Origin: a virus
Direction: 5' to 3' (one strand)
DNA: 39,131 nt
Virus record (IMG/VR): IMGVR_UViG_3300044630_007080
Coordinates: 1-39,131 of that record
The notes under the pieces were generated by a model, which saw only the letters and a program-made list of their open reading frames with translations, was not told the DNA's origin and did no database searches. Below are positions 16,372 through 36,454 of the stretch, in pieces (position 1 is the first letter of the stretch; each line of letters begins with the position of its first letter). A program made the translations under genes and the position numbers.

Positions 16372-16385
16372 AGAGAAGAATATAA

Positions 16386-17522: not shown

Positions 17523-17536
17523 GAGAATATACAAAT

Positions 17537-18682
17537 ATGGCAACGTTAAAAAATACTATAATCAATGCAACATCAGCATTAACAGGGCCGACTAACGCTA
17601 CCAGTACAGCTATCGGAACTGGAAAAATTCGATACAACACTACTAACAGCCAGAACACTTTAGAATTTTATGACGGAACTGCTTGGCGCCCAGTTACAGG
17701 ATACAGTCAAGGAACAGTAGGTACGGGTGGTCAGACTATTTCATACGTGTTGGGAAATATTGTGCATCTGTTTACCACAGTGGGCGGTCACACATTTACA
17801 CCGGCTCATACAGGAACTGTGCAGGTTTTAGTAGTAGGCGGCGGTGCCGCCAGCGGATATGATTGGGCAGGTGGTGGCGGTGGTGGTGGAGTTATTGTTA
17901 ACCGCAGTTTTCCTGTTAGTGCCGGAACCGGATATACTGTAACAGTCGGTGATGGATCAAAACAATACGACGGTGGGGGCTCGCCATCAGGTCCCACAGT
18001 GTCTGCAGCAAACGGCGGAAGCTCAGTATTTTCAACTATTACTGCGTCCGGCGGCGGCGGCGGCGGATCGTGGCAACCTAGTTCTCCAGCATCTATGGAT
18101 AACGGAAGAACTGGTGGACGAACCGGCGCATCCGGCGGCGGCGGTTCTAATACCGGTGACGGTGTTGATAGTCGTCAGCGCAACTATGGTGGCAGCGGAA
18201 TTGATGGTCAAGGATATCCAGGTGGGTCGGGAGTACGATTTAACGTAGACACCGAGAACACTCACCAAGGCGGAGCGGGAGGCGGAGCGGGAGGCCCCGG
18301 CGCAAGTGCTCCTGACGGTCGTCAGCGTTATCGCTCATCATTTAGGGGTGATCAAATCGCCGGAGGTCCCGGCCGCGCAACAGATATACTAGGAGGCACG
18401 CTATACTTTGGTGGCGGTGGTGCAGGCGGCGGACATTTAGGCTGGAACGTTAATGGTGCAGCTGGCGGTATCGGCGGTGGTGGGGGTGGTAGTTTCCACC
18501 ATAGCGGACCCTACGGCGGTGATAGAAAATTTGGCCAAGGCGGAGGCCAGTCATTAAACAATGGCACTGATGGATTTGCCACAGCACGTGGCGGCGAAGG
18601 CGGAGCTAATACCGGAGGCGGTGGCGGAGGTGGCCAACACGGTCGTAATGGCGGATCCGGAGTAGTTATTATTAAGTATTAA
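17537..18682 (+). CDS. Glycine-rich tail adhesin-like protein 3
   Basis: This 381-aa product is the last of the three tandem paralogues. The N-terminal module is slightly diverged (the QRP is missing; GTGKIRYNTT, LEFYDGTAW, PVTG kept). The beta segment VHLFTTVGGHTFTPAHTG and the glycine-rich body are retained, ending in GSGVVIIKY. The block GQGYPGGSGVRFN is shared with the others. The stop TAA (18680-18682) overlaps the stop of the convergent halogenase gene on the other strand, within a shared TTAA. This gene closes the plus-strand fibre module; everything to the right up to 33931 is enzyme genes. Confidence 0.8.
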   Translation: MATLKNTIINATSALTGPTNATSTAIGTGKIRYNTTNSQNTLEFYDGTAWRPVTGYSQGTVGTGGQTISYVLGNIVHLFTTVGGHTFTPAHTGTVQVLVVGGGAASGYDWAGGGGGGGVIVNRSFPVSAGTGYTVTVGDGSKQYDGGGSPSGPTVSAANGGSSVFSTITASGGGGGGSWQPSSPASMDNGRTGGRTGASGGGGSNTGDGVDSRQRNYGGSGIDGQGYPGGSGVRFNVDTENTHQGGAGGGAGGPGASAPDGRQRYRSSFRGDQIAGGPGRATDILGGTLYFGGGGAGGGHLGWNVNGAAGGIGGGGGGSFHHSGPYGGDRKFGQGGGQSLNNGTDGFATARGGEGGANTGGGGGGGQHGRNGGSGVVIIKY

Positions 18683-20244
18683 TCTTTATAGAAAGTATCT
18701 TTAAGATACTGATATAACGAAGGGGCTGTTTCTACAGCCTTTTTCCATTTTGTTTTCTTCTGTTCGAGTTTTTGAATCACAATAGAAAACTCTTGTTTAA
18801 GATCTGTACCAACAGGAAAGATGTGATTTAATAATGCGATATCGTTAGCATTCCAATTCATCCCTGCCGCTAAACAATTAATGCCTGGGTCTTCTTGAAA
18901 ATATCTCACAAAGTTTTTTTGATACATTGTTTGATAGTATAGACCCTGTGTTTGTAAATTATTAACTGTAGATGATAATTTAACGTAAGAGCGTTTTCCA
19001 ATATCTCGCCAATATTCCGAATCGTCGCGATGACTTAGTGCATAGTGCATTGAAACAAAATGTGCCCAATAGTTGAATTCGTCTTCGCATTTTAAATTAA
19101 ACTCATCTCGATCCCACTGACTTACGCTACCACGCAACAGCACACTACACAATGTTCGAGCAAATTCGTGTGTAGTAAGCAGCCCTGTGCTTTCTAATGG
19201 TTCGATAAATGCAGCACTTAGTCCTAAAGCAACAACATTTTTTTCCCATAAACGTTCATGAATGCCTACACGCATTTTTATATCTCTAAATTCACAATCG
19301 GTTGGATCAAGCCCTTTAGAAACTAGATGTTGTATAAAATCTGTTTTGGCTTGTTCCGGAGTTATGTATTTGTCGCTGTACACATAGCCTGTACCAATTC
19401 TTGACCATAACGGAATATTCCAAACCCAACCGTTGTCTAGTGCTGTGCAGTCTGTTACAGCATTCAGTTGAGATTCTTTATCAGTGTAATTAATTCTTGT
19501 AGCCCAAGCTCGATTGTTGGGCAGAAGATTTTCATAACTTTTAAATGGAACCTGTAATGCTTCTCCTAACAGCATAGATTTAAATCCAGTGCAGTCAACG
19601 AATAAATCGCCTGTGATTATTTCGCCGTTGTCCAATGTCAACGATGTGATCCCTGTTTCGTTTGTACCAACATCAACGACTTCTGCAGCAACGTGTACAA
19701 CTCCTCGAGGCTTGCAATGTTGATCACGCAACCAAATGCCTAGTTTTGCTGCATCAAAATGAAATGCAGTATCATTATAAAAATTAAAATTATCTAATTC
19801 TATATTGTCAACGCTGATCTTATTAGCATTGACCAATGCCATTTGGGAATAATAACAATTAACATAATCATCTGTTGATGTTTCTGGATACAATGCTTTT
19901 TTAATAAACCAATCATCTTTGAGATGTAGATTTCCAGTCAAACAAGGAAGGCCAAATGGATAATACCAAGTACCTGTATCTTTACTATAAAAGTTATTAA
20001 ACTTAATGGCGAGTTTATATGACGCATCAGTGGCTTTCATAAAATCGCGATCAGTTATTCCGACCATCCTAAGCCATCCGCGAATTCCTCCCACGGTGCT
20101 TTCGCCAACTCCTACAGTAGGAATACTAGGAGATTCGATGACTGTGATATTTTTATCTTTTAATTGCGTGACTAGAGATGCAGCAACAATCCAACCTGCA
20201 CTGCCTCCTCCAACAATTACAATATTTTTAATTTTTTGGCTCAT
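18679..20244 (-). CDS. Tryptophan halogenase family flavoenzyme
   Basis: The product has 521 aa, the usual length for flavin-dependent halogenases. It shows the N-terminal FAD-binding VGGGSAGW (residues 11-18), VGVGEST (44-50), and Lys77 in ASYKLAIKF at the position of the catalytic lysine (Lys79 in PrnA). The halogenase signature WxWxIP is present as WVWNIP (273-278), and an EPLEST block (348-353) holds the Glu-Ser pair near the active site. All known landmarks are intact, so it is a credible halogenase using FADH2, O2 and chloride or bromide; the substrate may be a free indole, a peptide or a protein. It is the last gene of a three-gene minus-strand operon, and its start overlaps the upstream gene by 17 bases. 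No flavin reductase is seen in the window. Confidence 0.88.
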   Translation of the reverse strand: MSQKIKNIVIVGGGSAGWIVAASLVTQLKDKNITVIESPSIPTVGVGESTVGGIRGWLRMVGITDRDFMKATDASYKLAIKFNNFYSKDTGTWYYPFGLPCLTGNLHLKDDWFIKKALYPETSTDDYVNCYYSQMALVNANKISVDNIELDNFNFYNDTAFHFDAAKLGIWLRDQHCKPRGVVHVAAEVVDVGTNETGITSLTLDNGEIITGDLFVDCTGFKSMLLGEALQVPFKSYENLLPNNRAWATRINYTDKESQLNAVTDCTALDNGWVWNIPLWSRIGTGYVYSDKYITPEQAKTDFIQHLVSKGLDPTDCEFRDIKMRVGIHERLWEKNVVALGLSAAFIEPLESTGLLTTHEFARTLCSVLLRGSVSQWDRDEFNLKCEDEFNYWAHFVSMHYALSHRDDSEYWRDIGKRSYVKLSSTVNNLQTQGLYYQTMYQKNFVRYFQEDPGINCLAAGMNWNANDIALLNHIFPVGTDLKQEFSIVIQKLEQKKTKWKKAVETAPSLYQYLKDTFYKD

Positions 20245-20959
20245 AAGGACACTGTTTTATTCTTTCTTCTTTCAATGAAGTGTATCTGTCATCGAGTGGT
20301 CTAAAGGTATCGGCCTGTCTAATATTGTTGCATAATTTAATTTCTTCCCAAGGAGTAGAACTTGGCACTAACTTGATCAGTTGATCTGAGTGAAATTTAA
20401 AGTATGCTATAGCATCGCCTTTTTTAATAACTATTTTTTCTTGGTTTGATCTAATTTCAAATACCAGCTCAACAGGTCTAGTCCACTTGCTGATATTAAA
20501 TTCTCCTGGAATTACTGCGGTTTTTTCAGTAAATTCGTTATGATGCATAAACGCAGGCAATACCTGCATCAGCACAGATTCGTCGCTGGTAAAAACATTA
20601 AGCCAGTCTATCCCAATAAGAGGAAATGGATTGGTTTCACTGTTATAATCTTCTAAAAATCGAGTATCGATTAGGTTGTCAAATACTTCTTGAGTTAAAT
20701 TTATACTGGTTACTGCTCTATTAGAATCAGTAATAGCGATGTCTAATGTAATATCAAACGGTGCTAAGAAAACAAATGTATTTTTTAAAAAATCAGTATG
20801 TGCAGGGCATTTTAAAAAAGTCGATCCTTTTCTAGTAGTCGCTATAATTTTTGTTAAATTTTTGTAAGGGTAGGTATCATCAAGTAGAGATTTCACACAA
20901 TCTAAATGATCAGTGTCCCATTGATGACTTGTGATAAAAGACCAGCGAACTATTTTCAT
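20228..20959 (-). CDS. Unrecognised protein between two halogenases
   Basis: The product has 243 aa and I do not recognise a family with confidence. Visible landmarks are a short N-terminal RWSFITSHQW segment, CPAHTDFLKNTFVFLAPFDI (about residues 51-70), and a second conserved-looking part PGEFNISKWTRPVELVFEI (about 151-169), followed by KKGDAIAYFKF. The strand-rich second half resembles a cupin or jelly-roll-like fold, but no clear metal triad is visible. Similar unknown proteins are, as far as I recall, found in marine T4-like phages. It overlaps the upstream halogenase by 4 bases (ATGA) and the downstream one by 17 bases, so the three are translationally coupled. That suggests a partner or substrate-handling role in the halogenation pathway, which is inference. 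Confidence 0.75.
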   Translation of the reverse strand: MKIVRWSFITSHQWDTDHLDCVKSLLDDTYPYKNLTKIIATTRKGSTFLKCPAHTDFLKNTFVFLAPFDITLDIAITDSNRAVTSINLTQEVFDNLIDTRFLEDYNSETNPFPLIGIDWLNVFTSDESVLMQVLPAFMHHNEFTEKTAVIPGEFNISKWTRPVELVFEIRSNQEKIVIKKGDAIAYFKFHSDQLIKLVPSSTPWEEIKLCNNIRQADTFRPLDDRYTSLKEERIKQCPYEPKN

Positions 20960-22425
20960 AGTTTAGTCAGCTCTGCGATACGGTCAACCTCCTTGCTGTG
21001 AGGCCTACTCCATATATGCCGATTCTTTTCGTGCTCGATATAATTTTTAACCAACAACTCGGCAGCTATGTCGTCGGAAATTGACAAATTTCGATTAGCT
21101 GGTTGATATCCCAGCTGTATCAACATCAAACTCCAATTAGACCCCCCAAACATATAATTGTATTTTCCTGCATTAGGAACTGATATGTTTGAGTTGCTAA
21201 GTTCTTCAATAAAATGATTCATCCTGCTAGAAGGTTGAAATTTAGCATTGACCCAATTCCAAAATTTACTAGAACGAGAACTATTAGCATAATGCATGCT
21301 GACAAAATCCACACAGTCTTCAAATAATATTTTCATCTGTAGATTAAAATTAGTTCTATCGATATCACTAAAACGTCTTTCATAGATCGCACTGTTTAAT
21401 TGTCCTATACCGTAGGTGATTAATCCGATGCCTGTGCTTTCTAACGGTTCAATAAAACCAGCACTTAGCCCGATACTTACAACATTGCCAGCCCACTGAT
21501 CTTCATTATAAAACGGGTCCCAATCTATAACTCTGATGTTTTCTTTTTTAATTCGATTGTCCCAGTGATCAACAAAATAGTCTTTGGCTTCGTCAATGTC
21601 TGTGATATCACGATTGAATACCATACCGCTACCGATTCTAGATGCTACTCCAATTTTCCAGATCCATCCGTGATCGACCGCCTCACATTCTGCATACGGT
21701 TTAAACTCAGCTGCACGATTTTGATACGGGATCGGACATGCAATTGCAGTGTTCACAAAAAGTCGATCGCTAAGGTCAATTCGGTTAGTAGGCTTACGCA
21801 ACACATTTTTAAATCCAGTGCAATCGATGTACAGATCACTTTGTATTAATTCTTTATTTTTTAATTCTAAAGATTCTATAGCATTCGAGTCTGTGTAGTT
21901 GACTTTCATTACATCAGAACGAATAATGTTGATTTTATCTTTTAATTTTTCCTGCAAAAATACAACTAACTTTCCGCAATCGACATGAAACGCATAATTA
22001 TCGATGCTGTTAGCATCCAACGCATTATAATCTATTGATACATCATAGCAGGACAGTGCATATTTTTTAAAATCCAGATGTTGATTGCATGACCAACTAT
22101 CCCAAACATTAACGCTGTTGCGTAGTTTTCGGTTGCCCTTATAAAACGGATGCCAAATATTGTCGTTAGGATGCCGCCAATTAGAAAATAATATTCCAGA
22201 CTTGTATCCGGTGTCCAATGCAGAAAACCAATCTTCTATTTTAAAACCACATTCTTCCATGAAAGGTTTGAAACTTAACAGTGTAGCTTCACCTACGCCA
22301 ATTGGGGTTCCTATTTCTTTATCAACCACTGTTATCTTAATATCTGGTTGATTTTTGTACAGATATGCCGCGGCGAGCCACCCGCTGGTTCCGCCTCCTA
22401 CAATGGTTATACTAGACACGTTCAT
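20956..22425 (-). CDS. Tryptophan halogenase family flavoenzyme, WxWxIG variant
   Basis: The product has 489 aa. The FAD-binding VGGGTSGW (residues 9-16), IGVGEAT (42-48), Lys75 in TGYKSGILF (catalytic lysine position) and EPLESTG (326-332) are intact. The signature WxWxIP reads WIWKIG (254-259), so the last Pro is Gly. The start has a good GAGGAAA ribosome binding site and a NATAARTA box upstream. It is the first gene of a minus-strand operon with the 243-aa unknown and a second halogenase. It is divergent, across 74 bp, from an oxygenase operon on the plus strand. Its function is probably halogenation of an aromatic substrate; the substrate is unknown. Confidence 0.85.
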   Translation of the reverse strand: MNVSSITIVGGGTSGWLAAAYLYKNQPDIKITVVDKEIGTPIGVGEATLLSFKPFMEECGFKIEDWFSALDTGYKSGILFSNWRHPNDNIWHPFYKGNRKLRNSVNVWDSWSCNQHLDFKKYALSCYDVSIDYNALDANSIDNYAFHVDCGKLVVFLQEKLKDKINIIRSDVMKVNYTDSNAIESLELKNKELIQSDLYIDCTGFKNVLRKPTNRIDLSDRLFVNTAIACPIPYQNRAAEFKPYAECEAVDHGWIWKIGVASRIGSGMVFNRDITDIDEAKDYFVDHWDNRIKKENIRVIDWDPFYNEDQWAGNVVSIGLSAGFIEPLESTGIGLITYGIGQLNSAIYERRFSDIDRTNFNLQMKILFEDCVDFVSMHYANSSRSSKFWNWVNAKFQPSSRMNHFIEELSNSNISVPNAGKYNYMFGGSNWSLMLIQLGYQPANRNLSISDDIAAELLVKNYIEHEKNRHIWSRPHSKEVDRIAELTKL

Positions 22426-22450
22426 ATATTTCCTCAGACTTGATGTAATG

Positions 22451-22458
22451 TACTTATA
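22451..22458 (-). promoter_or_regulatory. NATAARTA promoter-like box TATAAGTA
   Basis: TATAAGTA on the minus strand lies 25 bases before the ATG of the halogenase at 22425. It differs from the T4 late consensus at one position. The same 25-base spacing is seen for CATAAGTA before the halogenase at 31130, which makes a regulatory role more likely than chance alone. Confidence 0.4.
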
Positions 22459-22484
22459 TTTTTTTTGATGGCCGCTGTTAATTT

Positions 22485-22492
22485 CATAAATA
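22485..22492 (+). promoter_or_regulatory. T4-late-like promoter box CATAAATA, close to start codon
   Basis: CATAAATA lies only 7 bases before the ATG at 22500, and no ribosome binding site is visible. With T4 late spacing (the box ends at -6), transcription would begin about two bases before the ATG, giving an almost leaderless message. Confidence 0.4.
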
Positions 22493-22499
22493 TCGCAAT

Positions 22500-23087
22500 A
22501 TGATACAGATTATCGATGACTTTATATCAGCTGATTTTCAAGAAGAGATTAAACACACGCTGCTTGGGCATAGTTTCCCATGGTACTTTACTGAAGATAT
22601 TACTTTTGGAAAATCTCTAGTCGAATCTCAAAATCTAGGCCAGCCTCATCCTGCTCACGCACATCTATTTTGTAGGAACAAGAAGCCTACAAGCAACTAC
22701 TTTGACCTAGTACTGCCGTTAGCACATTTTGGAGCATCGGCAGCAAATTTTAAATTTAATAATGTTGTGCAGTGCAGGAGTTTTTTGCAGTATCCGTTAA
22801 GCAATGATTTTTTAGAGAAGAATATAGATAAACTGCATATTGATTTACCGTACGACCATTTGGTGGTATTATATTACGTCATCGATTCCGACGGAGACAC
22901 ATTAATTGTTGATAAAGTTAGAAAAGGCAACATCGAAGAATATCATCATAGTGCCGAGGATTACAAAATACTGCAACGAGTAAAGCCAAAACAAGGTCGA
23001 GCAGTGATATTTGATGGTAAGTATTATCATACCGCAGAACAACCATCAACGAATATGCGTTGTATTATTAATTTTGATATCGTATAA
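22500..23087 (+). CDS. 2-oxoglutarate/Fe(II) oxygenase, prolyl-hydroxylase-like (FPW type)
   Basis: The product has 195 aa. It has an N-terminal IIDDFIS and a FPWYF block (26-30). The double-stranded beta-helix core has iron ligands His113 and Asp115 (HID), a YYVIDSDGDT strand (125-134), distal His177 (YYHT) and Arg187 ten residues later, which would bind the 2-oxoglutarate carboxylate. All expected residues are present, so it should be a functional hydroxylase of protein residues or small molecules. It is the first of four overlapping plus-strand oxygenase genes; its TAA overlaps the next ATG by one base. It belongs with 23087, 28946 and 31159 in one FPW subgroup. The substrate is unknown. 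Confidence 0.85.
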   Translation: MIQIIDDFISADFQEEIKHTLLGHSFPWYFTEDITFGKSLVESQNLGQPHPAHAHLFCRNKKPTSNYFDLVLPLAHFGASAANFKFNNVVQCRSFLQYPLSNDFLEKNIDKLHIDLPYDHLVVLYYVIDSDGDTLIVDKVRKGNIEEYHHSAEDYKILQRVKPKQGRAVIFDGKYYHTAEQPSTNMRCIINFDIV

Positions 23088-23701
23088 TGATCAACAGTAA
23101 AATACATGTAATAGATAACTTTTTACCAGACCTTGAATTTTTAAAATTACAAGAACATGTACTGTCGGTTAATTTTCCTTGGTTCTATTGCGAACATGTA
23201 TCACTGGCGCCTGAAGACAATGTAATTCAAGATCCGTTAGCAGTCGAGACTGATGGGTTCCATCATATTTTTTATGATAAAGAATACAAAGTTCAGAGTT
23301 TTACCTATGACTATCTAGATAATTTTTTAAAACGATTGGAAGAATCTCTAGGTTTTACACAAGAACATCTTGTGAGATTCAGGGCCAGTATGAAAAGTCC
23401 TAAAGTTAATTTTACTGAAAAAAATTACAACTTGCCCCATGTGGATTATTTTTTTCCTCATGAGACCATGATATATTACCTCAACGACTCAGACGGCGAT
23501 ACTCGTATATTTGATCAAGAGTTTGAAGCCACAACGAATAATTTTGGAATCGGTCACCACGATACATTCACAACAAAACATCAAATAACTCCAAAAGCCA
23601 ATCGATTACTTTGGTTTAACGGTTTTAGGTATCACACAGCCAGCAACCCAATAAATTCTAATAGAAGAGTTATCCTTAACATTAATTTACTACCACGATG
23701 A
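23087..23701 (+). CDS. 2-oxoglutarate/Fe(II) oxygenase, prolyl-hydroxylase-like (FPW type)
   Basis: The product has 204 aa. The N-terminal HVIDNFL and FPWFY (30-34) blocks match the preceding gene. The active-site residues are His118 and Asp120 (HVD), a strand YYLNDSDGDTRIFD (130-143), His183 (RYHT) and Arg193 ten residues later. It is clearly paralogous to the gene at 22500, with about the same length and layout, so the pair looks like a tandem duplication that has diverged. The start codon shares a base with the upstream stop, and the next gene starts in an ATGA overlap, so translation is coupled. The role is hydroxylation of an unknown substrate. Confidence 0.85.
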   Translation: MINSKIHVIDNFLPDLEFLKLQEHVLSVNFPWFYCEHVSLAPEDNVIQDPLAVETDGFHHIFYDKEYKVQSFTYDYLDNFLKRLEESLGFTQEHLVRFRASMKSPKVNFTEKNYNLPHVDYFFPHETMIYYLNDSDGDTRIFDQEFEATTNNFGIGHHDTFTTKHQITPKANRLLWFNGFRYHTASNPINSNRRVILNINLLPR

Positions 23702-24880: not shown

Positions 24881-24882
24881 AT

Positions 24883-25524
24883 TTATCTGTTGTATCTTAT
24901 ATTTGGATTGATTTTTTCTAGTACAAACATATATCCTAGACAATTTTCAAAATCAGTATCGGTTACAAACGGTATCTCTTTTGCCAATATTACTTTAAAA
25001 AAGTTAGAAGAATAATATTCTATTTCCCCCAAAAATATCGGCGGCGGCATACACGAATCTATAATAGGCTGACACGGACTACCTGTTATAATAATCAGCT
25101 TTCCGTTATCAGCTAATAAGATATTCAATTTTTCAAAAATTTCTTGTAATCTATTTTTGTAATTATGTAAAAATCCTCTATCGTAAATTACATCAAATTT
25201 TTTGTCTGTAGTTCCTTGAAAAAAATCTGTTGCTATAAAATTTACTTTAGAATTTATATGTATTTTTTTTGATAATTCTATTACGTCTTCTGAAATATCT
25301 ATAGCTGTAACATTAAATCCTCGATCAGCAAGATATACGCTGTCGTATCCGCTTCCGCATCCTAATTCTAAAAGTTCACCAGCATTTAAATCAACAGAAT
25401 CTAAAAATTGTTTCAGGTTCGGATCAACTGTTTTGATCTCCCAAGGAATAACATCGCTATTATTTTTAGAAGCGAATTTTACTTTTCCTTTATAAACGTT
25501 TTTCCAATATGTATTATCGTCCAT
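24883..25524 (-). CDS. Class I SAM-dependent methyltransferase, TPMT-like
   Basis: The product has 213 aa. The SAM-binding motif LELGCGSGYDS (52-62) is followed by an acidic end of the second strand in VTAIDIS (72-78). A DFF element and FDVIYDRGFLH precede the third conserved block, and a later strand GKLIIITG closes the core. The N-terminal YWKNVY and PWE elements and the IYDRGF block recall the thiopurine/thiol (TPMT) methyltransferase superfamily, which also includes halide and thiocyanate methyltransferases. The substrate cannot be read from the sequence. It is the last gene of a minus-strand operon with a halogenase and two oxygenases, so it probably modifies the same product. Confidence 0.82.
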   Translation of the reverse strand: MDDNTYWKNVYKGKVKFASKNNSDVIPWEIKTVDPNLKQFLDSVDLNAGELLELGCGSGYDSVYLADRGFNVTAIDISEDVIELSKKIHINSKVNFIATDFFQGTTDKKFDVIYDRGFLHNYKNRLQEIFEKLNILLADNGKLIIITGSPCQPIIDSCMPPPIFLGEIEYYSSNFFKVILAKEIPFVTDTDFENCLGYMFVLEKINPNIRYNR

Positions 25525-25551
25525 GATAGTTTTTGATTAAATTTGTCTATT

Positions 25552-27024
25552 TTATATAAGTTTTTTATTTCGAATTGATGAAATAAATTCTTTATGGCTT
25601 ACAGTGGGATTCATTTTTTCAAGAGTTCTAGTTTCTCGTATGAAATTTTCAGCAACATTTTTTATATCATGATGCATCATATCGTACTCTTGTTTTATTT
25701 TTACTCGATCAAATAAATCTAATCCGGCAAGCACCTGTAGATAATGTGCATCTCGAAACAAAACATACGCAGTCTGACTATTGAAGTCGTCGACTATAGG
25801 TAAGTTTGTTCGCCATTTCTCTAAATTTTCTTTAAGTGAATCTGGAAGTTCTATTTGAGAAACATCTTTCCAAAATTGTGTATTGGTTTTATTTGTGATA
25901 TAATGTAATATTACAAAATCACGAATGTTCGTCATTATATCGTTTACATCTTTGTTGTATTTTTCAATAGTCTTTTCAGTGTAGTTAGGCAAGCGATGCA
26001 TTAATAGAAACGCCTGTTGGATACTGGTGCCTATTGATGTGGCCTCCAACGGCTCGATGAAATTAGCACTCAGCCCAATAGCACAACAATTCTTAATCCA
26101 CACACGATCTAAATGTCCAGGATCAAAATTAATATGCTTTCCGACAGTTATTTCATGCCCTAAAAATTTCTCAACCTCGGCCTTGGCCTGTTCTGCATTG
26201 ATGTAATCACTGTCAAAAATATATCCGTTTCCACATCTACCCCAAACAGGAATATTAAACATCCATCCGTAGTCCATTGCTTGTGCAGTGGTCCACATAT
26301 TGTATTCTTCTTTTTCTTCGGTCGGAAAAACTATTGCAGATTTCATTTTAAGATATTTGCTATGTGATTGCCAGGTAGCTCCTAGTTTAGATATCAACAA
26401 TTTTTTAAATCCTGTACAGTCGATATAGAAATCTGAAGAATAGGTATTATGTTCTCCTACTAACTGTTTGATATCCCCAGCATTAGACAACTGCACATCT
26501 AAGATTTCGTCGTCAATCACATCGATGCCTCGAATTCCTGCAATTTTAGTGAGGAAATCGTTTAATTTGTTAGTATTAAAATGGTATTGATTGAAAGGAG
26601 ACCCGCTGTCTGGTTCTAGATGTTTAGCATATACTTTGTTTTCCCAAACAAGGCTGGGATTAAGCATATGATTCGGTGCTCTAGAGCTTAACAATTTTCC
26701 GTATACTGTAGGATATTGTCCGTTTTTGATATCATTTTCTGGACCTATGCTGTGTAGGTAATCTTGTTTGCCCCATCCCTTAAACATAATTCCACATTTA
26801 AATGTGGCGTCGCAGTGCCTGATTACAGTTTGAAAAGGAACATTTATATATTTCATAAACTCGTTCCAGTGTTCGGTGCTGCCTTCACCAACACCTATAA
26901 TACCAATTTTTTTGGAACGGATCACTTCAACCTGTAAATGAGGAAATCTTGTTTTTAAAATTAATGCAGCAGTAAATCCTGCGGTTCCGCCGCCGACCAC
27001 TGATATTTTTTCTAATTTATTCAT
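25552..27024 (-). CDS. Tryptophan halogenase family flavoenzyme, WxFxIP variant
   Basis: The start chosen is the ATG at 27024 (490 aa), which gives MNKLEKISVVGGG at the FAD-binding end and overlaps the upstream stop by 8 bases; an upstream ATG at 27069 would add 15 unrelated residues. VGGGTAGF (10-17), IGVGEGS (43-49) and Lys76 (ATFKCGIMF) are present. The signature is WMFNIP (254-259), with Phe for the second Trp. The block is EPLEATS (324-330), with Ala where Ser usually follows Glu. The fold is clearly halogenase-like, but these two changes make activity or halide handling less certain. It sits between two oxygenases and the methyltransferase. Confidence 0.85.
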   Translation of the reverse strand: MNKLEKISVVGGGTAGFTAALILKTRFPHLQVEVIRSKKIGIIGVGEGSTEHWNEFMKYINVPFQTVIRHCDATFKCGIMFKGWGKQDYLHSIGPENDIKNGQYPTVYGKLLSSRAPNHMLNPSLVWENKVYAKHLEPDSGSPFNQYHFNTNKLNDFLTKIAGIRGIDVIDDEILDVQLSNAGDIKQLVGEHNTYSSDFYIDCTGFKKLLISKLGATWQSHSKYLKMKSAIVFPTEEKEEYNMWTTAQAMDYGWMFNIPVWGRCGNGYIFDSDYINAEQAKAEVEKFLGHEITVGKHINFDPGHLDRVWIKNCCAIGLSANFIEPLEATSIGTSIQQAFLLMHRLPNYTEKTIEKYNKDVNDIMTNIRDFVILHYITNKTNTQFWKDVSQIELPDSLKENLEKWRTNLPIVDDFNSQTAYVLFRDAHYLQVLAGLDLFDRVKIKQEYDMMHHDIKNVAENFIRETRTLEKMNPTVSHKEFISSIRNKKLI

Positions 27025-27667
27025 CTTTATTTTTTTCCGGAACTTGAAATTTATAATTTCCCGATACACTTATGCGATAATTATCAGACGTGTAAAATGG
27101 AGACACCGAATGATTTAACGGTGCAGGAAATAAAAAGAAATGATTTACCATATTACAATCTGCGCCAATATGCTGATGACATATTTTTCCTAGACTGTTT
27201 GTGTAGTGAAATGTGAAATGTCCAGCAAGCGGATTTAAAGATTCAGAACCAGGCGCCTGCGATTTTTCGTCTTCGATACTATAGGGAATATCAATCCAGA
27301 TTACAAAACTCAGTACACCGGTGTGAGAATGGGTGGGATTAAATTCATGTTTTTCTTGAAAGTTAACCCACATCGAATCTATAGCTAATAAACAATCAGA
27401 GTTTAGAACCGCCACTGAACTAAGATATCCAAACGAATTATCAAATTCCCAAACATATGGTTCTAATAGTTTATTAATATGATCTTTAGATTTAGTTAGC
27501 TCAAATTCTTTTCTAATGTTTCCGACCAGTTGATGATTATGTTTTTTAGATTGACTGAAATTATTTTGAATTTCTAAAATTTCTTCTCTAAGGGGAGCTA
27601 ACTCTTCGTCAGTGAGCACCGCGGTAATAACTCCAACGTTCGTAAATTGTAAAGTTTTTGCATTCAT
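27017..27667 (-). CDS. 2-oxoglutarate/Fe(II) oxygenase-like protein, HxH type
   Basis: The product has 216 aa. The core has WVNFQEKHEFNPTHSH, giving H113-S-H115, then a VLSFVIWIDIPY strand, an insertion of about 20 residues, HFTFHYTN, a FLFPAPLNHSV element with His186, and Arg198 twelve residues later. The layout matches the HxH subgroup, though the SGV block typical of the family is replaced by LSFVIW. It overlaps the upstream oxygenase in an ATGA and the downstream halogenase by 8 bases, so the genes are tightly coupled. The role is probably hydroxylation of an unknown substrate. Confidence 0.75.
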   Translation of the reverse strand: MNAKTLQFTNVGVITAVLTDEELAPLREEILEIQNNFSQSKKHNHQLVGNIRKEFELTKSKDHINKLLEPYVWEFDNSFGYLSSVAVLNSDCLLAIDSMWVNFQEKHEFNPTHSHTGVLSFVIWIDIPYSIEDEKSQAPGSESLNPLAGHFTFHYTNSLGKICHQHIGADCNMVNHFFLFPAPLNHSVSPFYTSDNYRISVSGNYKFQVPEKNKDE

Positions 27668-28287
27668 GTTAATTTAATCTTTAAGTTATCTACAGTTAAG
27701 TCAGAACCAAATTCTCCAAACGTAAATGAATTAAAACCTATAATTCTACGATCAGTTGGATGTAAATTTGAGCTTACTTGATGACTAACCCAACTTGGGA
27801 ATATTACAAGCATATTTGGTTTTAACCCCAATGTCCAGCTTTTAGAATTTAATAAATTATATTCATCTACGGTGTAATCAAATTGGAATTTTTTCGAAAA
27901 TGCAGGCTCGAACAGTAGTTCTAAATCGCCGCTATCAATGTCAATATATAACACACCAGAAAAAATACTGTTACCGTGAAAATGTTCAGCATGAAATGTA
28001 TTTTGCGGATTACGTGTTGCCCAGCTATCGGTTATAGCAAACTGATTTTTAATTTTTAAAATATCGTGTACATAATGATTTAACGATTCTTGTAGGTCCG
28101 TTTTTAAATCTTTAAATTCTTCTAAATCTAATATTTGACGATTTTTTGAAATATAATTATTGCCGCCACCACCTGACATTTTTTCTTCTAAACTTGTTAA
28201 AGTTAAGTATTCAGTCGAAGATAATTTTCGATAATCTTCAACGATGAACAATGGGATACTTGCTAACGGAATGAGTAATTCTTTCAT
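27664..28287 (-). CDS. 2-oxoglutarate/Fe(II) oxygenase-like protein, HxH type
   Basis: The product has 207 aa. After an N-terminal IPLFIVEDY and a GGGG linker (39-42), the core has H102-F-H104 followed by GNSIFSGVLYIDI, a beta strand LELLFEP, then LVIFPSWVSHQV with His169, and R180-R181 in DRRIIGF. It is the first gene of the minus-strand operon that ends with the methyltransferase. No Shine-Dalgarno is obvious before the ATG, and the upstream region is shared with the divergent gene at 28326. The family assignment is good; the substrate is unknown. Confidence 0.78.
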   Translation of the reverse strand: MKELLIPLASIPLFIVEDYRKLSSTEYLTLTSLEEKMSGGGGNNYISKNRQILDLEEFKDLKTDLQESLNHYVHDILKIKNQFAITDSWATRNPQNTFHAEHFHGNSIFSGVLYIDIDSGDLELLFEPAFSKKFQFDYTVDEYNLLNSKSWTLGLKPNMLVIFPSWVSHQVSSNLHPTDRRIIGFNSFTFGEFGSDLTVDNLKIKLT

Positions 28288-28313
28288 TTTATTTTTAGTA
28301 CTGCAATAAATTC

Positions 28314-28321
28314 CATAAATA
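28314..28321 (+). promoter_or_regulatory. T4-late-like box CATAAATA touching the start region
   Basis: CATAAATA ends 4 bases before the ATG at 28326, with no ribosome binding site between. With normal late-promoter spacing, transcription would start inside the start codon. So either the spacing differs, the box is coincidental, or the true start lies further in. Confidence 0.3.
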
Positions 28322-28325
28322 ATCG

Positions 28326-28943
28326 ATGTTTAAACTAACTGAGAATTTGCTATTTGTAACGTCGTGCTTTACTACTTATGTCGACAGTATTAATCATACC
28401 GACATAGTTGATGCAATAGAAAGAATTCAGAAAGAAGAACCAGGGAATCAACGAAGTAATCAGGGCGGATTTCAGTCGATGGTTAAACACTCTCCCGATT
28501 TTGATAATTCAGAAACCATTAGACTTTTTAATGATGTAATTTTTCCAGCGGCACAGTTAGTCGGTAAAGCGTGGTCAATCCCATCAGAGATGGACAAGGT
28601 AGCATATTGGTATAATGTTAATTACAAATATTCTTCAAATCGAGAACATACACATCCAAATTCTTTTTTAAGCGGTGTTTATTATATCAAAGTTCCGCAA
28701 GACAGCGGAAACATCATGTTTTTAAGAGCAAATTCTGAACATGATAAAATGGAATTTATACATCAACTTATAACAGAAAAAAACTTACAAATTGATAATA
28801 ATCGAATCAATACCGAACATTGGTTTGCACCAGCGGAAGGAATGTTAATTTTGTTTCCGGGACACCTAACACATTACGTTCGACAAAATTTAACCAATGA
28901 TACAGACGATCGAAGAATCTCGTTGTCGTTTAATTTTTATTAG
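28326..28943 (+). CDS. 2-oxoglutarate/Fe(II) oxygenase-like protein, HxH type
   Basis: The product has 205 aa and shows the clearest 2OG-FeII_Oxy_5 pattern in the window: YWYNVNYKYSSNREHTHPNS with H108-T-H110, then FLSGVYYIKVPQDSGNIMF, and the C-terminal LILFPGHLTHYV with His183 and R196-R197 in DRRISLSFNF. It is a single plus-strand gene between two minus-strand operons and ends two bases before the convergent oxygenase gene. No Shine-Dalgarno is visible; a CATAAATA box sits immediately upstream. The substrate is unknown. Members of this family occur widely in cyanophages. Confidence 0.82.
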   Translation: MFKLTENLLFVTSCFTTYVDSINHTDIVDAIERIQKEEPGNQRSNQGGFQSMVKHSPDFDNSETIRLFNDVIFPAAQLVGKAWSIPSEMDKVAYWYNVNYKYSSNREHTHPNSFLSGVYYIKVPQDSGNIMFLRANSEHDKMEFIHQLITEKNLQIDNNRINTEHWFAPAEGMLILFPGHLTHYVRQNLTNDTDDRRISLSFNFY

Positions 28944-28945
28944 GA

Positions 28946-29596
28946 TTATTCAGTTTCAAAATCAAAATTAATCACTATCCGTGAACTGTAAGTTATGGGA
29001 TAATTTCCAGCATGATATCGGTGCCCGTTAAAAAACAATCCTTGACCTTTTCTTGGAGTTATTCTTGTTAATTCAGGAAGGGGATCAGCAAATACCGGGT
29101 TATATATTTCTTCTTGGGGATTAAAAATCTTATCAAAAATAATAGTATCACCGTCGCAATCGTTTACATAATATACAAGAGTTGAATAAGGATGCCCGGT
29201 ATTAAAGTCTACATGCGGCGCAGCATATTTAAAACCGTCATGTCCTTTACCTTTGTGCGTATAGCGCAATCGTATTCTTAAAATATTAGTTACTTTGATG
29301 TTTGTTTTTTCTGTAAAAAATTCTAATATTGCCCTAAAGAAGTCGTAGTGTGGTGATGCATGATTGCCATCAAATGCCATATGGAAAAAACCGACATCGT
29401 CGGTTATGTTCGGGTCAACATACTTGGGTGTAGTTCCTACTCCGTAATGATCTGGATGCCCAATACGGTGTAATAAAAACCACGGAAAATGTTGATCTCC
29501 TTGAACCCTTTCAATTACAGCATTTTGAAAAGTCTCAGGAATTACATTGTCGATGACTAAAATTTCATCTTTGATTTTGTTAATTTGATAAGCCAC
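28946..29596 (-). CDS. 2-oxoglutarate/Fe(II) oxygenase, prolyl-hydroxylase-like (FPW type)
   Basis: The product has 216 aa with a GTG start; no other in-frame start is close to the family N-terminus. The blocks are LVIDNVI and FPWFL (37-41), then APHVD with His128 and Asp130, the strand VYYVNDCDGDTIIFD (141-155), RYHAG with His195, and Arg206 eleven residues later. It belongs to the same subgroup as 22500 and 23087. It overlaps the upstream halogenase (29580) by 17 bases, so it is translationally coupled to it. Function: hydroxylation of an unknown substrate. All expected iron and co-substrate residues are present. Confidence 0.83.
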   Translation of the reverse strand: MAYQINKIKDEILVIDNVIPETFQNAVIERVQGDQHFPWFLLHRIGHPDHYGVGTTPKYVDPNITDDVGFFHMAFDGNHASPHYDFFRAILEFFTEKTNIKVTNILRIRLRYTHKGKGHDGFKYAAPHVDFNTGHPYSTLVYYVNDCDGDTIIFDKIFNPQEEIYNPVFADPLPELTRITPRKGQGLFFNGHRYHAGNYPITYSSRIVINFDFETE

Positions 29597-31130
29597 GATC
29601 TAATCTAATTTTTCTAAAATAATTTATAAATTCTTCGTAGGATTGATAATTTCTAATTTCTTTAGCAAACTCTTCTTGTAGATCGTAGTATGCCTGCGCA
29701 GTAATATCTCGCATGTTTCCGTGAATTGGGATTGAAAAATCTAATTCAGACAATGCCGACGTGTTGTTTAGTCTTTTGATGCCTGCCATGACATAACTAT
29801 ACAGTGCCCACCCTGCAGAACCGGCGTATCGAGGAAAATCATGTGATGTGGGTAGTCTTGTTTTTGCCATCTCTAACAAATCCTCAACAAACGGAGTTTT
29901 TGTAACGCCTGTATTAATGTATTTCCAAAATTCAGTGTCAGATCGCCCGCCCATATAGTGCATTACTAAAAAGTCTTTAACATCGTCGAACATTTTTCGA
30001 GTTCTATGATTATAGATATTTTGTGATCCTGCGTTTATTGTATCATCTAATGTGGACTTGATGTACTCAAATATCAAAGTCCTGCCTTGCACTATAGTTG
30101 AATGGATCGATGTTGCTTCTAACGGCTCTAAAAATGCAGAGCTGAGTCCGATGGTTATACAGTTGTTGATCCATGCTGCATCTTGTCTGCCAGTATCAAA
30201 TTTAATAACTTTAATCGGATCAATTTCTTGACCTAGAATTGTTTCAATTTCTTCCTGTGCCTTGTCCGGAGTAGTAAATGCATCACAAAATACATAGCCA
30301 CATCCTTTTCGATCCATCAACGGAATTTGCCACATCCATCCGTTTTTTTGTGCCCATGCAGTAGTGTACGATTCCGGAATCTCATTTTGTTTATATTTTA
30401 GTTGAAACGGTAGTCCAGTATTTAACGGAAGATTTTTTTGATAACTGACCCACTTGTTTCCTGGCATGTGCTTCATTAACACTCTACCAAACCCAGAACA
30501 ATCAATAAACAAATCTCCGTCTACAGTCCCACCACTTTTTAAAACAACAGATTTAATAAATCCTTTTTCGTTAAGAACTACATCAACAACTTCGTCGTCG
30601 ACATGCCTGGCATTGCGCTCAGCTAGACATTTCTTTTTAAAATATTTTCCAACCAGCACTGCATCAACGTGCATGGCATGTCGATAATTGGCAAATTGAT
30701 TGGTATCTTTTTCAAAATTGGATACACCCTTATCAATCCAGTATCCGCACTGCGAAACATTAACTAATTGGCTTGGATGCAAGCGATTAAGACCGTAAGC
30801 AAATAACGCATCGGGCGTGGCTTCTTTGGTATGACTGCCGTCGATTGGACCAAGATAGTAGTCATCGATATTATTAGTCCACCCTTTGTGCTTGATTGCA
30901 TATTTTAACGTGGCTCCGGTTTCGATAATAAACTCGTCGTGATCACAACCAAAGTCTGCGCCATGGTTAACTAAGATATCAGTTAGGTAGCCTGTTGTAC
31001 TTTCCCCAACTCCAATCACACCAATTTTAGTAGATTCAATAACAGTAATATTATGATTTGGATGGCGCTTGGTTGCCATTAGGGCAGTTGCCCACCCTGC
31101 CGTTCCTCCGCCCACTATTACAATTTGCAT
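29580..31130 (-). CDS. Tryptophan halogenase family flavoenzyme
   Basis: The product has 516 aa. VGGGTAGW (6-13), IGVGEST (39-45) and Lys76 (ATLKYAIKH) are present. The signature WMWQIP (265-270) is a perfect WxWxIP. The later block reads EPLEATS (335-341), so Ala339 stands where Ser follows Glu in PrnA-type enzymes; the same change occurs in the 25552 gene. The start has an AAGGA ribosome binding site and a CATAAGTA box 25 bases upstream. It is followed by a coupled oxygenase (28946) and preceded by another oxygenase (31159). It is probably an active or specialised halogenase; the substrate is unknown. Confidence 0.87.
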   Translation of the reverse strand: MQIVIVGGGTAGWATALMATKRHPNHNITVIESTKIGVIGVGESTTGYLTDILVNHGADFGCDHDEFIIETGATLKYAIKHKGWTNNIDDYYLGPIDGSHTKEATPDALFAYGLNRLHPSQLVNVSQCGYWIDKGVSNFEKDTNQFANYRHAMHVDAVLVGKYFKKKCLAERNARHVDDEVVDVVLNEKGFIKSVVLKSGGTVDGDLFIDCSGFGRVLMKHMPGNKWVSYQKNLPLNTGLPFQLKYKQNEIPESYTTAWAQKNGWMWQIPLMDRKGCGYVFCDAFTTPDKAQEEIETILGQEIDPIKVIKFDTGRQDAAWINNCITIGLSSAFLEPLEATSIHSTIVQGRTLIFEYIKSTLDDTINAGSQNIYNHRTRKMFDDVKDFLVMHYMGGRSDTEFWKYINTGVTKTPFVEDLLEMAKTRLPTSHDFPRYAGSAGWALYSYVMAGIKRLNNTSALSELDFSIPIHGNMRDITAQAYYDLQEEFAKEIRNYQSYEEFINYFRKIRLDRGLSN

Positions 31131-31155
31131 ATTGTTCCTTAGATAATTAATTTAA

Positions 31156-31163
31156 TACTTATG
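31156..31163 (-). promoter_or_regulatory. NATAARTA promoter-like box CATAAGTA
   Basis: CATAAGTA on the minus strand lies 25 bases before the halogenase ATG at 31130 and overlaps the stop codon of the upstream oxygenase gene. The spacing is the same as for TATAAGTA before the halogenase at 22425. Confidence 0.35.
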
Positions 31164-31764
31164 CGTATGTAACCACAAATACAACTCGTCTGGAGCACAT
31201 CTCCGGAAAACGGTGAGCGTGCCACATTTCAGGAAATGTAACAGCAGTATATTGTTCACACGGCAGAATATAACTGGTGGAAAAATCGTTAGGCCATACT
31301 ATTGTTTGCCCTTGTTTACAGGTATTTAGATACATTATAAAATTATAATGCGGCCATTTGTGATCTCTGTGAGGTTCAGTATGCCCCGACCCGTTATGCC
31401 AATTTAGATTTAAATTAGCTCGAAATATTTTTTTATATTTTAACCCGTGTTCGATCATAAATCTATGAAAGATTTCTATAAAAAATTCGTAAAAATCGCC
31501 GAAGTGGTTAAGAGGTCTGTCTGTATGATCGACTGATTCGTCTTCGGTCCTGCGTAGTAATGTATGACTAAGAAACGCAGAATTAATATGACTCATATAA
31601 GGTCTCATCGATTCGGGCAAATACTCGGGAGATTTATTCATAGTTTGCTGACCAACATAAAACCAAGGAAACATCTCTCCCATGATCACAGTCTCGATGA
31701 TTTCTTGCTCTCGTGGAGAAACAGACACAGCAGCACGAGTAATTAGATCCAATGGCATGTTCAT
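31159..31764 (-). CDS. 2-oxoglutarate/Fe(II) oxygenase-like protein (FPW type, divergent)
   Basis: I place the start at the ATG at 31764 (201 aa). A GTG at 31779 would add five residues and an ATG at 31758 would remove two; none has a clear ribosome binding site. The FPWFY block near the N-terminus links it to the 22500/23087/28946 subgroup. The core has PHRD (His and Asp about residues 130-132), then a PHYNFIMYLNT strand, QGQTIVW, a FPEMWHAHRF element with the distal His, and an Arg pair in CSRRVVF. The DGDT block of the others is replaced by KQGQT. It is first in a minus-strand operon with a halogenase and an oxygenase. The substrate is unknown. Confidence 0.75.
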   Translation of the reverse strand: MNMPLDLITRAAVSVSPREQEIIETVIMGEMFPWFYVGQQTMNKSPEYLPESMRPYMSHINSAFLSHTLLRRTEDESVDHTDRPLNHFGDFYEFFIEIFHRFMIEHGLKYKKIFRANLNLNWHNGSGHTEPHRDHKWPHYNFIMYLNTCKQGQTIVWPNDFSTSYILPCEQYTAVTFPEMWHAHRFPEMCSRRVVFVVTYA

Positions 31765-31833
31765 GGTTATATTTAACACAGCGTATTATTCTTATTTGTC
31801 AAACCGAAACTTTAAATCTATGTACAATACAGT

Positions 31834-31841
31834 GATAAGTA
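31834..31841 (+). promoter_or_regulatory. NATAARTA promoter-like box GATAAGTA
   Basis: GATAAGTA lies 28 bases before the ATG at 31870, followed by an ACGGAG ribosome binding site. It sits in the 105-bp divergent region between two oxygenase operons, the longest gap in the window. I see no other clear element there. Confidence 0.35.
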
Positions 31842-31869
31842 ATAAACAAAACTACTAACGGAGTATTTT

Positions 31870-32493
31870 ATGACCCCAGACTCACCCGAAATTTCCTTTG
31901 AAAATTCTGATAATTTTACCGATTTAGCAGAATTTAGCAATGCTAAAAAAGCAACACTAGACATTGTATCAATTAATAAATCAAAGTTGTTTACAAAAGA
32001 ACAATGTGCTGAAATTTTAAATAATGCCATCGAAGAATTATGGCTACCTACAAGAATAATCGGCGACAATAAATTGCATGTTGCTCGACGCCAAAAAGTT
32101 CGAGGAGACTTAACAGGATTCCCATTCATGAACATTCGAACAGTTACTAAAGATGCTAACGACGAAATATATGATTTTAATTTATTAGGAATCATCGATC
32201 AAGATTTTCCTCAATTGTTTAAGTATTCTGAAAAAGAATATTATAATTGGCATATTGATTTAAATGTAATGATGCCGTCGAGAAAAATAACATTCATAGT
32301 TAACCTTTCGGATCCCAGTGAATATACAGGTGGAGAAATTGAGTTTTTAAACATTGATACGGCTACTGCTGATATCAACGAGCAAGGAGCATGTTTGATA
32401 TTTCCCTCATACATGCCGTATAAAATTAATCCCGTTAAAACCGGCAACAACTGTATTTTAGTAGGACATGTTCACGGAGCACTTTTTAAGTGA
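31870..32493 (+). CDS. 2-oxoglutarate/Fe(II) oxygenase-like protein with broken active site
   Basis: The product has 207 aa. The HID pair is kept (His128, Asp130 in NWHID), followed by a KITFIVNLSDP strand and the YTGGEIEF turn. The C-terminal part aligns with the next gene through IFPS and NPV-x-x-G, but Tyr184 stands where the distal iron-binding His should be, and Asn194 stands where the 2-oxoglutarate-binding Arg should be. It is therefore probably inactive as a classical dioxygenase, or works differently. An ACGGAG site precedes the ATG. The next gene, with an intact triad, starts in a 4-base GTGA overlap, so the two products may form a hetero-complex. Confidence 0.78.
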   Translation: MTPDSPEISFENSDNFTDLAEFSNAKKATLDIVSINKSKLFTKEQCAEILNNAIEELWLPTRIIGDNKLHVARRQKVRGDLTGFPFMNIRTVTKDANDEIYDFNLLGIIDQDFPQLFKYSEKEYYNWHIDLNVMMPSRKITFIVNLSDPSEYTGGEIEFLNIDTATADINEQGACLIFPSYMPYKINPVKTGNNCILVGHVHGALFK

Positions 32494-33275
32494 TATTAAA
32501 ATATAATTATTGGTATTTTTTATCGGCCATACCACCCGGTGTTTGCGACCAAATAATTGAAGCCGGACTGTCGGCAATGCACGAACAAGAAGCAAAGTAT
32601 GGCAAGGATGCATCTAACGCCTCAGTAGGTGGCTGGCGACAAAAAACCAACGATGATCGAATACCTGCAAAATCAGCATCAATAAACGGTTTGCACAAAA
32701 AAGGGATCGATATTGACAAAACATATGTTCGTGATTCTAATGTATCGTGGCTCAATGATCCAGCAATATATGAGATTATTTGGGGATTTGTTAAGCAAGC
32801 AAACAAAGCCGCAGGTTGGAATTTTGATTGGGATTATACAGAAGATTTACAATTTACAAAATACAGTCCGGGGCAGTTTTACGGGTGGCATACTGATGTG
32901 GGGATAGAACCGTATAGAAGATTCGATCCGACTGTAGATACGTATCATACAAATCCAGACGGCTCAATTATGGTTGACACATTTGGAAATCCTCAAGTCG
33001 AGGATCAAGCAGCAACTGAAAATACAAATCAAATAGGCAAGATAAGAAAATTAAGTGTTACAATAAGTTTAAACGATCCAGCTGAATATAAAGGCGGAAA
33101 TTTAAAATTCGATCTTGGGCCACACGGAAAAACTCGTTATCATACATGTAAAGAAATCCGACCCCAGGGATCGATTATTGTGTTTCCGTCTCACATTTAT
33201 CATCAAGTTACTCCAGTTACTAAAGGAACTAGATACAGTCTAGTAGCATGGAACTTAGGAAAGCCATTTAAATGA
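32490..33275 (+). CDS. 2-oxoglutarate/Fe(II) oxygenase, PKHD-type
   Basis: The product has 261 aa and starts at GTG within a GTGA overlap with the upstream gene. The core has KYSPGQFYGWHTD with His134 and Asp136, an insertion of about 40 residues, KLSVTISLNDPAEYKGG (187-203), then VFPSHIYHQVTPV with His238 and Arg248 in KGTRYS. This is the classic PiuC/PKHD hydroxylase pattern with all ligands present. The N-terminal half contains GGWRQKTNDDRIP. Paired with the degenerate upstream protein, it may supply catalysis for a two-subunit enzyme. It overlaps the next gene by 4 bases (ATGA). The substrate is unknown. Confidence 0.87.
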   Translation: MILKYNYWYFLSAIPPGVCDQIIEAGLSAMHEQEAKYGKDASNASVGGWRQKTNDDRIPAKSASINGLHKKGIDIDKTYVRDSNVSWLNDPAIYEIIWGFVKQANKAAGWNFDWDYTEDLQFTKYSPGQFYGWHTDVGIEPYRRFDPTVDTYHTNPDGSIMVDTFGNPQVEDQAATENTNQIGKIRKLSVTISLNDPAEYKGGNLKFDLGPHGKTRYHTCKEIRPQGSIIVFPSHIYHQVTPVTKGTRYSLVAWNLGKPFK

Positions 33276-33931
33276 ATAACCCAGAAGAATTTAAAAAAAA
33301 CAAATATCTCAATTTAAAAAAAGTTGTTCCTGTTGATCTTTGTAGAATTGTAACAAAATATGCACTGCTGAAAGAAGAACACGAGTTTTCCCCAGAAAAA
33401 GGCAACAATGCTCAAGTCAAAGATGCACACTCGGTGTACAGCGACACTCTTATGGAAACTATGATGCATTTTTTATTACCTCATATGGAGCATCATACCG
33501 GACTATCGCTGTGTCCTACATATACCTATTACCGAGTTTATCGGCCTGGGATGATTTTAGAAAGACACAAAGATCGACCTAGCTGTGAAATAAGCACAAC
33601 TGTGTGTTTTGGATTCAATTATAATTACATGGACCCTGGCTATCGATGGGGAATGTACGTTGACAAGGATTCATGGAATGTTGCTGGCCCTTCTGGAGAA
33701 TTTATCAGTGCTAAAAACACCGGGATAATGATAGATCAAGATCCAGGAGATTTAATAATTTATCGAGGCTGCGAAATAGAACATTGGCGAGACCCATTTA
33801 ATGCAGGCCCGAACAGCTATCAAGTACAGGCATTTTTTCATTATGTCGATAAAAACGGTCCATTTTACCCGGAATATGCTTACGATAAACGCCCTGGTAT
33901 CGGGTTCCGACTTGATAAAACGCATAAATAA
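33272..33931 (+). CDS. 2-oxoglutarate/Fe(II) oxygenase-like phage protein
   Basis: The product has 219 aa. The central block YRVYRPGMILERHKD supplies His99 and Asp101, and EIEHWRDPF supplies His171. No Arg follows at the usual ten to twelve residues; Arg173 lies next to the His, and the C-terminal strand reads YQVQAFFHYVD. This pattern recurs, as I recall, in T4-like cyanophages where it is annotated as an iron/2-oxoglutarate oxygenase, and co-substrate binding may use another residue. It overlaps the upstream gene by 4 bases. It is the third member of a plus-strand oxygenase operon and the last enzyme gene of the island. Confidence 0.8.
   Translation: MNNPEEFKKNKYLNLKKVVPVDLCRIVTKYALLKEEHEFSPEKGNNAQVKDAHSVYSDTLMETMMHFLLPHMEHHTGLSLCPTYTYYRVYRPGMILERHKDRPSCEISTTVCFGFNYNYMDPGYRWGMYVDKDSWNVAGPSGEFISAKNTGIMIDQDPGDLIIYRGCEIEHWRDPFNAGPNSYQVQAFFHYVDKNGPFYPEYAYDKRPGIGFRLDKTHK
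33923..33930 (+). promoter_or_regulatory. T4-late-like promoter box CATAAATA
   Basis: CATAAATA overlaps the end of the preceding oxygenase gene and lies 22 bases before the ATG of the tail assembly chaperone gene, followed by a GAGGAG ribosome binding site. This is the expected layout of a T4-type late transcript. Confidence 0.45.
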
Positions 33932-34448: not shown

Positions 34449-36414
<1,966 letters not shown>

Positions 36415-36454
36415 AGTTTCTCCTGGAATTATGTACGTGCTTAATGCAGACACT

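Follow-up and report, generated by a model that had tools for sequence, protein, structure and literature searches.

The cyanophage halogenase VirX1 has been characterised in vitro as an iodinase whose wide-open active site accepts bulky substrates (PMC8407142), and no report of its native substrate was found in the literature searched. VirX1 comes from the syn9/Syn10 locus gp35-gp54, and the translation of syn9 gp42 equals the VirX1 chain (PDB 6qgm) along the printed alignment. This locus comprises, in order, fibre genes, glycine-rich tip genes, a small chaperone-like gene, halogenases, a protein here termed d, and oxygenases. Here we describe a similar locus in a 39.1-kb stretch of viral DNA, hereafter the window, from the IMG/VR contig IMGVR_UViG_3300044630_007080, which represents a T4-like tailed marine phage. 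An island of exactly 18 overlapping or nearly overlapping genes (positions 18679-33931) is directly preceded by three glycine-rich paralogues (15310-18682). According to Pfam, PHROG and motif analysis, the island consists of four PF04820 halogenases, twelve 2-oxoglutarate (2OG)/Fe(II) oxygenase-like genes, one methyltransferase and one phrog_17480 protein, confirming the gene content given in a preliminary description of the sequence, in which the three paralogues were not singled out. On balance, we lean towards reading the island as a set of late-expressed enzymes that modify the phage's own glycine-rich fibre-tip adhesins after translation. The window differs from syn9/Syn10 in having four halogenases instead of two and in lacking a JmjC-like gene. 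In addition, its genes lie on mixed strands with the halogenases facing the tips, whereas all genes of the syn9/Syn10 locus lie on the fibre strand.

Both halves of this arrangement have described counterparts. The Pam3 fibre gp24, which is accompanied by the chaperone gp25, has a TNF-like plus a glycine-rich receptor-binding tip; the glycine-rich domain has been assigned to receptor recognition and carries polar residues at its loop ends (PMC9608196). A chaperone-like gene likewise adjoins the tips in loci related to the window, whereas no tailoring enzymes have been described for Pam3 (PMC9608196), and the window tip protein G2, one of three paralogues, is by its sequence length devoid of the long helical stem of gp24. 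The polyglycine adhesins gp38 of T2, S16 and PP01 similarly display receptor-recognition loops on a glycine-rich lattice at the tip of the tail fibre (PMC12892980). However, gp38 loops are hypervariable while loop ends of the window type are conserved (W, H) between relatives, and gp38 is not among the Foldseek matches listed for G2. Numerous 2OG oxygenases (24 genes) occur in cyanophage S-SCSM1, where they are treated as metabolic (PMC9602691), and metaviromic islands with fibre genes have Fe(II) oxygenases listed under host recognition with no mechanism given (PMC3909814). In neither case was a halogenase or a coupling to residues reported.

The same module follows the fibre genes in syn9, S-RIM44, P-RSM6, P-TIM40, S-WAM1, S-CREM1, Sf-FR1 and Sf-CH11, where one or two halogenases and several oxygenases accompany glycine-rich proteins and, in most cases, a small chaperone-like gene. 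Two halogenases and about ten oxygenases are present at this place in both syn9 and P-RSM6, and one halogenase and about nine oxygenases in S-CREM1; the earlier statement that such genes are known singly in cyanophages was therefore incorrect. With four halogenases and twelve oxygenases, the window island ranks with the largest fetched, and in two close relatives, L009 and L010 (the latter a contig of 76.6 kb), five halogenases each adjoin this tip triplet. Fibre proteins of the window are about 31-34% identical to those of T4-like cyanophages and one pelagiphage, and no near-identical DNA was found in the phage collection searched.

The three paralogues, G1 (15310-16371; PF21722, phrog_2295), G2 (16386-17522) and G3 (17537-18682), are encoded on the plus strand. 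The Gly_rich_2 domain (PF21722) was matched at E 1e-13. A sequence search of the PDB with G2 gave no match, and a fold search was needed. Using the predicted model of G2 (predicted local distance difference test score 85.6), the only PDB match below E 0.001 was the cyanophage Pam3 fibre (7ypx; E 2e-4, probability 1.00, template modelling (TM) score 0.49 by target length). G1-G3 are thus predicted to be receptor-binding fibre-tip adhesins. W180 and H294 of G2 lie between two glycine runs in the sequence and, by analogy with Pam3, may be located at a loop end. Together with H243 they represent the positions linked to halogenases below, corresponding to W165, H219 and H269 in G1 and to W179, H243 and H300 in G3.

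Linkage between the enzymes and glycine-rich genes was determined in 11 complete cyanophage genomes, with expected counts obtained by circular shifts. Ten of 13 halogenases lay within 5 kb of a glycine-rich gene (1.0 expected, p=5e-5). For oxygenases, a limit of 10 kb gave 66 of 138, against 17.7 expected (p=5e-5). Single-genome shift tests taken alone mostly gave values of 0.03-0.4. Among 48 IMG/VR loci of at least 10 kb selected by halogenase, 31 contained a glycine-rich gene and 39 an oxygenase. When gene order was shuffled inside halogenase loci, the closeness of tip and halogenase was not significant (p=0.63), because the tips sit at the island edge and the loci are short; whole genomes were therefore used instead. 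Conversely, when the tip triplet served as the query, all 15 close relatives found carried a block of d protein, halogenase and oxygenases directly behind it. This conserved co-occurrence, proposed as a check in the preliminary description, is in line with its suggestion of a dedicated tailoring set; the absence of linkage in related phages, named there as an argument against a common pathway, was not observed. The same arrangement occurs in L012, whose remaining genes appear podovirus-like by eye. Two loci, L047 and L079, have several glycine-rich genes, one halogenase and d proteins without oxygenases, resembling a minimal, halogenase-only version. A wider sample of glycine-rich loci included many with neither enzyme class, which served as controls.

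As a hold-out, a second tip family (syn9 type) was fetched without reference to halogenases and scanned after the residue analysis described below. These tips are His-rich (4.1% His in the glycine-rich segment), and each of the 70 loci that reached 10 kb had a halogenase next door. In contrast, none of 11 loci with the His-poor tips of halogenase-free cyanophages had a halogenase, while oxygenase clusters were often present. An alternative explanation for the linkage is that the fibre region is a hot spot of gene gain, in which halogenases and oxygenases are auxiliary metabolic genes, directed at the metabolism of the host (2-oxoglutarate levels, for example), that came to lie near fibres by chance recombination. 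The metabolic reading of oxygenases in the literature (PMC9602691), the AT-richness of the island, its distal end, which varies between relatives, and the occurrence of oxygenases elsewhere in cyanophage genomes would all agree with this. However, a hot spot is expected to collect mixed cargo whereas the island is almost purely halogenase and oxygenase, and neither the 70/70 versus 0/11 split nor the His coupling and the late promoters common with virion genes, both described below, are predicted by it. We consider this explanation rather unlikely.

Residue coupling was analysed in an alignment of 211 unique glycine-rich domains, 114 from loci with and 97 from loci without a halogenase. His was present at position 243 (G2 numbering) in 73 of 114 domains with halogenase but in 6 of 97 without, and at position 294 in 79 of 114 and 6 of 97, respectively. 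Trp at position 180, in the turn between two glycine runs, occurred in 58 of 114 domains with and in 2 of 97 without halogenase. These raw counts owe part of their size to shared ancestry. In phylogenetic generalized least squares (PGLS) regression across the 20 residue types, the His content of the tips increased with halogenase presence by 1.04 per 100 residues (p=2.9e-8). This coupling was retained after removal of the window clade (p=2e-8) and also when the analysis was restricted to tip-selected loci (p=1.9e-7). Coupling of Pro was weak (p=0.02), and total Trp did not depend significantly on the halogenase. The enrichment was most pronounced in the tips: with halogenase they contained 2.23 or 2.88 His per 100 residues compared to 0.59 without, while the difference was small in other proteins of these loci (1.58 or 1.81 compared to 1.24). 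In S-RIM44, tips beside halogenases have 2.8-4.3% His and a glycine-rich protein 64 kb away has 0.4%; S-PM2 similarly has a His-poor glycine-rich protein distant from its halogenases. Of the 132 syn9-type tip sequences, 130-132 retain H179, H202 and H235, and at three of the variable His positions Tyr, Phe or Trp are common replacements. We rejected Trp as the sole target, as W180, striking in raw counts, was bound to the window clade after correction. The Trp halogenation suggested initially is thus backed mainly inside the window clade, while it is His that follows halogenases after phylogenetic correction. The skeleton of a marine sponge is known to contain 5-bromohistidine (PMC8659048). 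A separate group of triple-tip loci with halogenases (L231, L232 and L237-L239) carries Tyr rather than Trp at position 180; its tips, too, are rich in His and Pro.

Several observations weigh against tailoring of the tips. The His/halogenase coupling is correlational, and the phylogenetic correction is rough, with the tree built from the same short, glycine-rich domains. Per-position tests minus the window clade were weaker (p=0.004-0.007 for H243, H294 and an aromatic residue at 180; p=0.15 for W180), and Tyr content showed no halogenase effect. His is a less usual target of flavin halogenases than Trp or Tyr. Presence of oxygenases had no effect on tip composition, and no residue followed it in PGLS. 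Some halogenase loci have no glycine-rich gene, and the hold-out counts rest on few independent evolutionary events because each tip family is all-or-none for halogenase. Exceptions also occur among single proteins: S-CREM1 53542 has 0% His beside the island, and Syn19 35308 has 2.6% His without a halogenase. Finally, further cyanophage halogenases are located away from the tip locus (S-RIM44 172205, S-PM2 121559, P-SSM2 175255); those of S-RIM44 and S-PM2 are close to other large structural genes.

A further counter-explanation is that the tip His bind metal, as they do in the fibre tip of T4, and that the link to halogenases reflects a shared ancestor or habitat only. The clustering of the conserved His and the all-or-none distribution of halogenases over the two tip families are in favour of metal binding. 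However, two diverged tip families both show the coupling, which is also seen inside single genomes and survives PGLS, and metal binding supplies no reason for the linkage to halogenases. We therefore regard this explanation as very unlikely.

All four halogenases of the window, located on the minus strand at 18679-20244, 20956-22425, 25552-27069 and 29580-31130 (halogenases 1-4), scored above the PF04820 cut-off (E 1e-86 to 1e-105), and VirX1 is the closest solved structure to halogenase 1 (6qgm, E 6e-95). Taking K79 of PrnA/VirX1, E346 of PrnA and the Trp motif WxWxIP as reference, the GGGxxG flavin motif, the catalytic Lys and the Glu of F(I/L)EPLE are kept in all four. The Trp motif is less uniform: WxW is present in three and replaced by WxF in halogenase 3, and IP is present in three and replaced by IG in halogenase 2. 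Halogenases 2-4 share only 25-28% identity with halogenase 1 and are thus unlikely to be recent duplicates. Between halogenases 1 and 2 lies the d protein (20228-20959, minus strand; phrog_17480), which has distant PF19541-like relatives. Its model weakly matches the dUTPase fold (E 8e-4, TM score about 0.3 by query), apparently in degenerate form, and the GxxDxxYRG signature was not seen in the alignment. The d protein is a recurrent neighbour, adjoining a halogenase in 35 of 57 cases and lying nearer than chance in halogenase loci, and may be a helper.

Seven of the twelve oxygenase-like genes passed the Pfam cut-off, five of them with PF13759 (23698-24312, 24266-24880 and 28326-28943 on the plus strand; 27017-27667 and 27664-28287 on the minus strand) and two with PF13640 (31870-32493 and 32490-33275, both plus). 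Two phrog_274 members (23087-23701, plus; 28946-29596, minus) were just below the cut-off for PF13640. The remaining three were recognised solely via PHROG families, 22500-23087 (plus) and 31159-31779 (minus) by phrog_274 and 33272-33931 (plus) by phrog_2954. The metal-binding His pair and the 2OG-binding Arg (H..H..R) are kept in 11 of 12, including 22500-23087 and, as HxD..H..R, 33272-33931; the exception, 31870-32493, is without the distal His and the Arg and is possibly inactive. In phage records, the names 'DNA endonuclease V', 'ferrochelatase' and 'minor coat protein' of PHROG 274, 2954 and 1644 have spread onto oxygenase-like proteins, and 'endonuclease V' and 'ferrochelatase' for families 274 and 2954 look like misnomers. 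Collagen-like GXY repeats, a substrate of prolyl hydroxylases, were not seen by eye in the translated fibres. The island further includes an S-adenosylmethionine-dependent methyltransferase (24883-25524, minus strand) for which only L215 and L220 have a relative at the corresponding place.

In agreement with the preliminary description, no scaffold-building enzyme or precursor peptide (nonribosomal peptide synthetase, polyketide synthase, or ribosomally synthesized and post-translationally modified peptide) was found among the window genes by Pfam/PHROG, precursors of less than 60 amino acids not having been searched. This bears on the possibility that the enzymes halogenate and hydroxylate a small molecule (free tryptophan or some host metabolite, for instance), either to defend the infected cell or for signalling. 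The halogenase family does include enzymes acting on free Trp, and phage prnA was at one time suggested to have an antibiotic role (PMC2984593). Nevertheless, twelve oxygenases without a scaffold enzyme or precursor genes do not suit such a pathway, which would also leave the coupling to fibre tips unexplained, and we give it little credence.

Six copies of ATAAATA, the T4-type late promoter motif, are present in the window, each on the correct strand and at most 45 bases before an open reading frame. The genes behind them are the fibre gene 6568 (motif at 6543, plus strand), the first oxygenase 22500 (22486-22492, plus; 14 bases upstream), oxygenase 28326 (28315-28321, plus; 11 bases upstream), the chaperone gene 33953 (at 33924, plus), the connector gene 36514 and the GroES gene. 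Across the window and its relatives, 52% of ATAAATA matches are so placed, whereas permutations of its letters reach no more than 10%. No exact match precedes the minus-strand halogenase operons of the window. Late expression also bears on the idea that the enzymes modify the host surface (receptor, lipopolysaccharide or exopolysaccharide), for example against superinfection, and co-evolve with the tip. This would explain the linkage to adhesins and, through a tip adapted to an altered receptor, some of the residue coupling. Late promoters suit virion assembly better, yet they are compatible with a late change of the surface; overall, modification of the host surface seems highly improbable to us.

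For tailoring of the phage's own tips, we propose the following sequence of events. Late promoters would turn on the oxygenase operons alongside fibre, chaperone and baseplate genes. The flavin halogenases would draw reduced flavin from the host and halide from seawater, and their targets would be aromatic side chains where the loops of the tip domains end, mainly the conserved His (H243 and H294 of G2) and, in the window clade, also W180. The 2OG oxygenases may hydroxylate residues of the same tips, forming a more general layer that is also found without halogenases. The outcome would be a receptor-binding tip with a chemistry beyond the twenty amino acids. We infer the tips as the substrate, as well as the residues that would react, the identity of the halogen and an effect on adsorption. 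The preliminary description had pointed to the adjacent fibre genes; an adjacent virion protein is indeed the likeliest substrate, though not fibre proteins generally but the glycine-rich fibre-tip adhesins.

A long tail-fibre protein is encoded 5' of the tips (6568-14190, plus strand); at their N termini, it and a second giant fibre protein (922-6531) have in common repeats of some 50 residues (W..G..Y..DVV..GG..Y.C...H) that are reminiscent of carbohydrate-binding repeats. The island is followed by a tail-fibre assembly chaperone (33953-34390, plus strand; PF16778). Further downstream, genes for GroEL (34449-36113, minus strand; best phage-collection matches at 45-51% identity) and GroES (36106-36453, minus strand) adjoin each other. 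The baseplate-fibre connector (36514-37611; phrog_677) shows by eye a C-terminal plastocyanin-like copper-site pattern, H...C..H..M, which looks like a blue-copper domain built into the virion.

Halogenase tailoring of a fibre protein was not found as a proposal in the literature searched, with subscription journals and preprints outside its scope. We rate the proposed tailoring system as new, the type of locus being already present, unexplained, in public genomes. The broader proposition, on which we are evenly divided, is that a virus-encoded multi-enzyme system halogenates His (and Trp/Tyr) and hydroxylates further residues on fibre tips, being widespread among marine T4-like phages and occurring also in at least one further type of phage. 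If true, it would reveal on what viral halogenases, VirX1 among them, act natively and explain the abundance of 2OG oxygenases in marine phages. To our knowledge, it would be the first case of a virus chemically widening the residue set of its own receptor-binding protein. The sequences pinpoint the exact residues in cultured phages, and the system would have consequences for host range, adsorption and the search for protein-acting halogenases.

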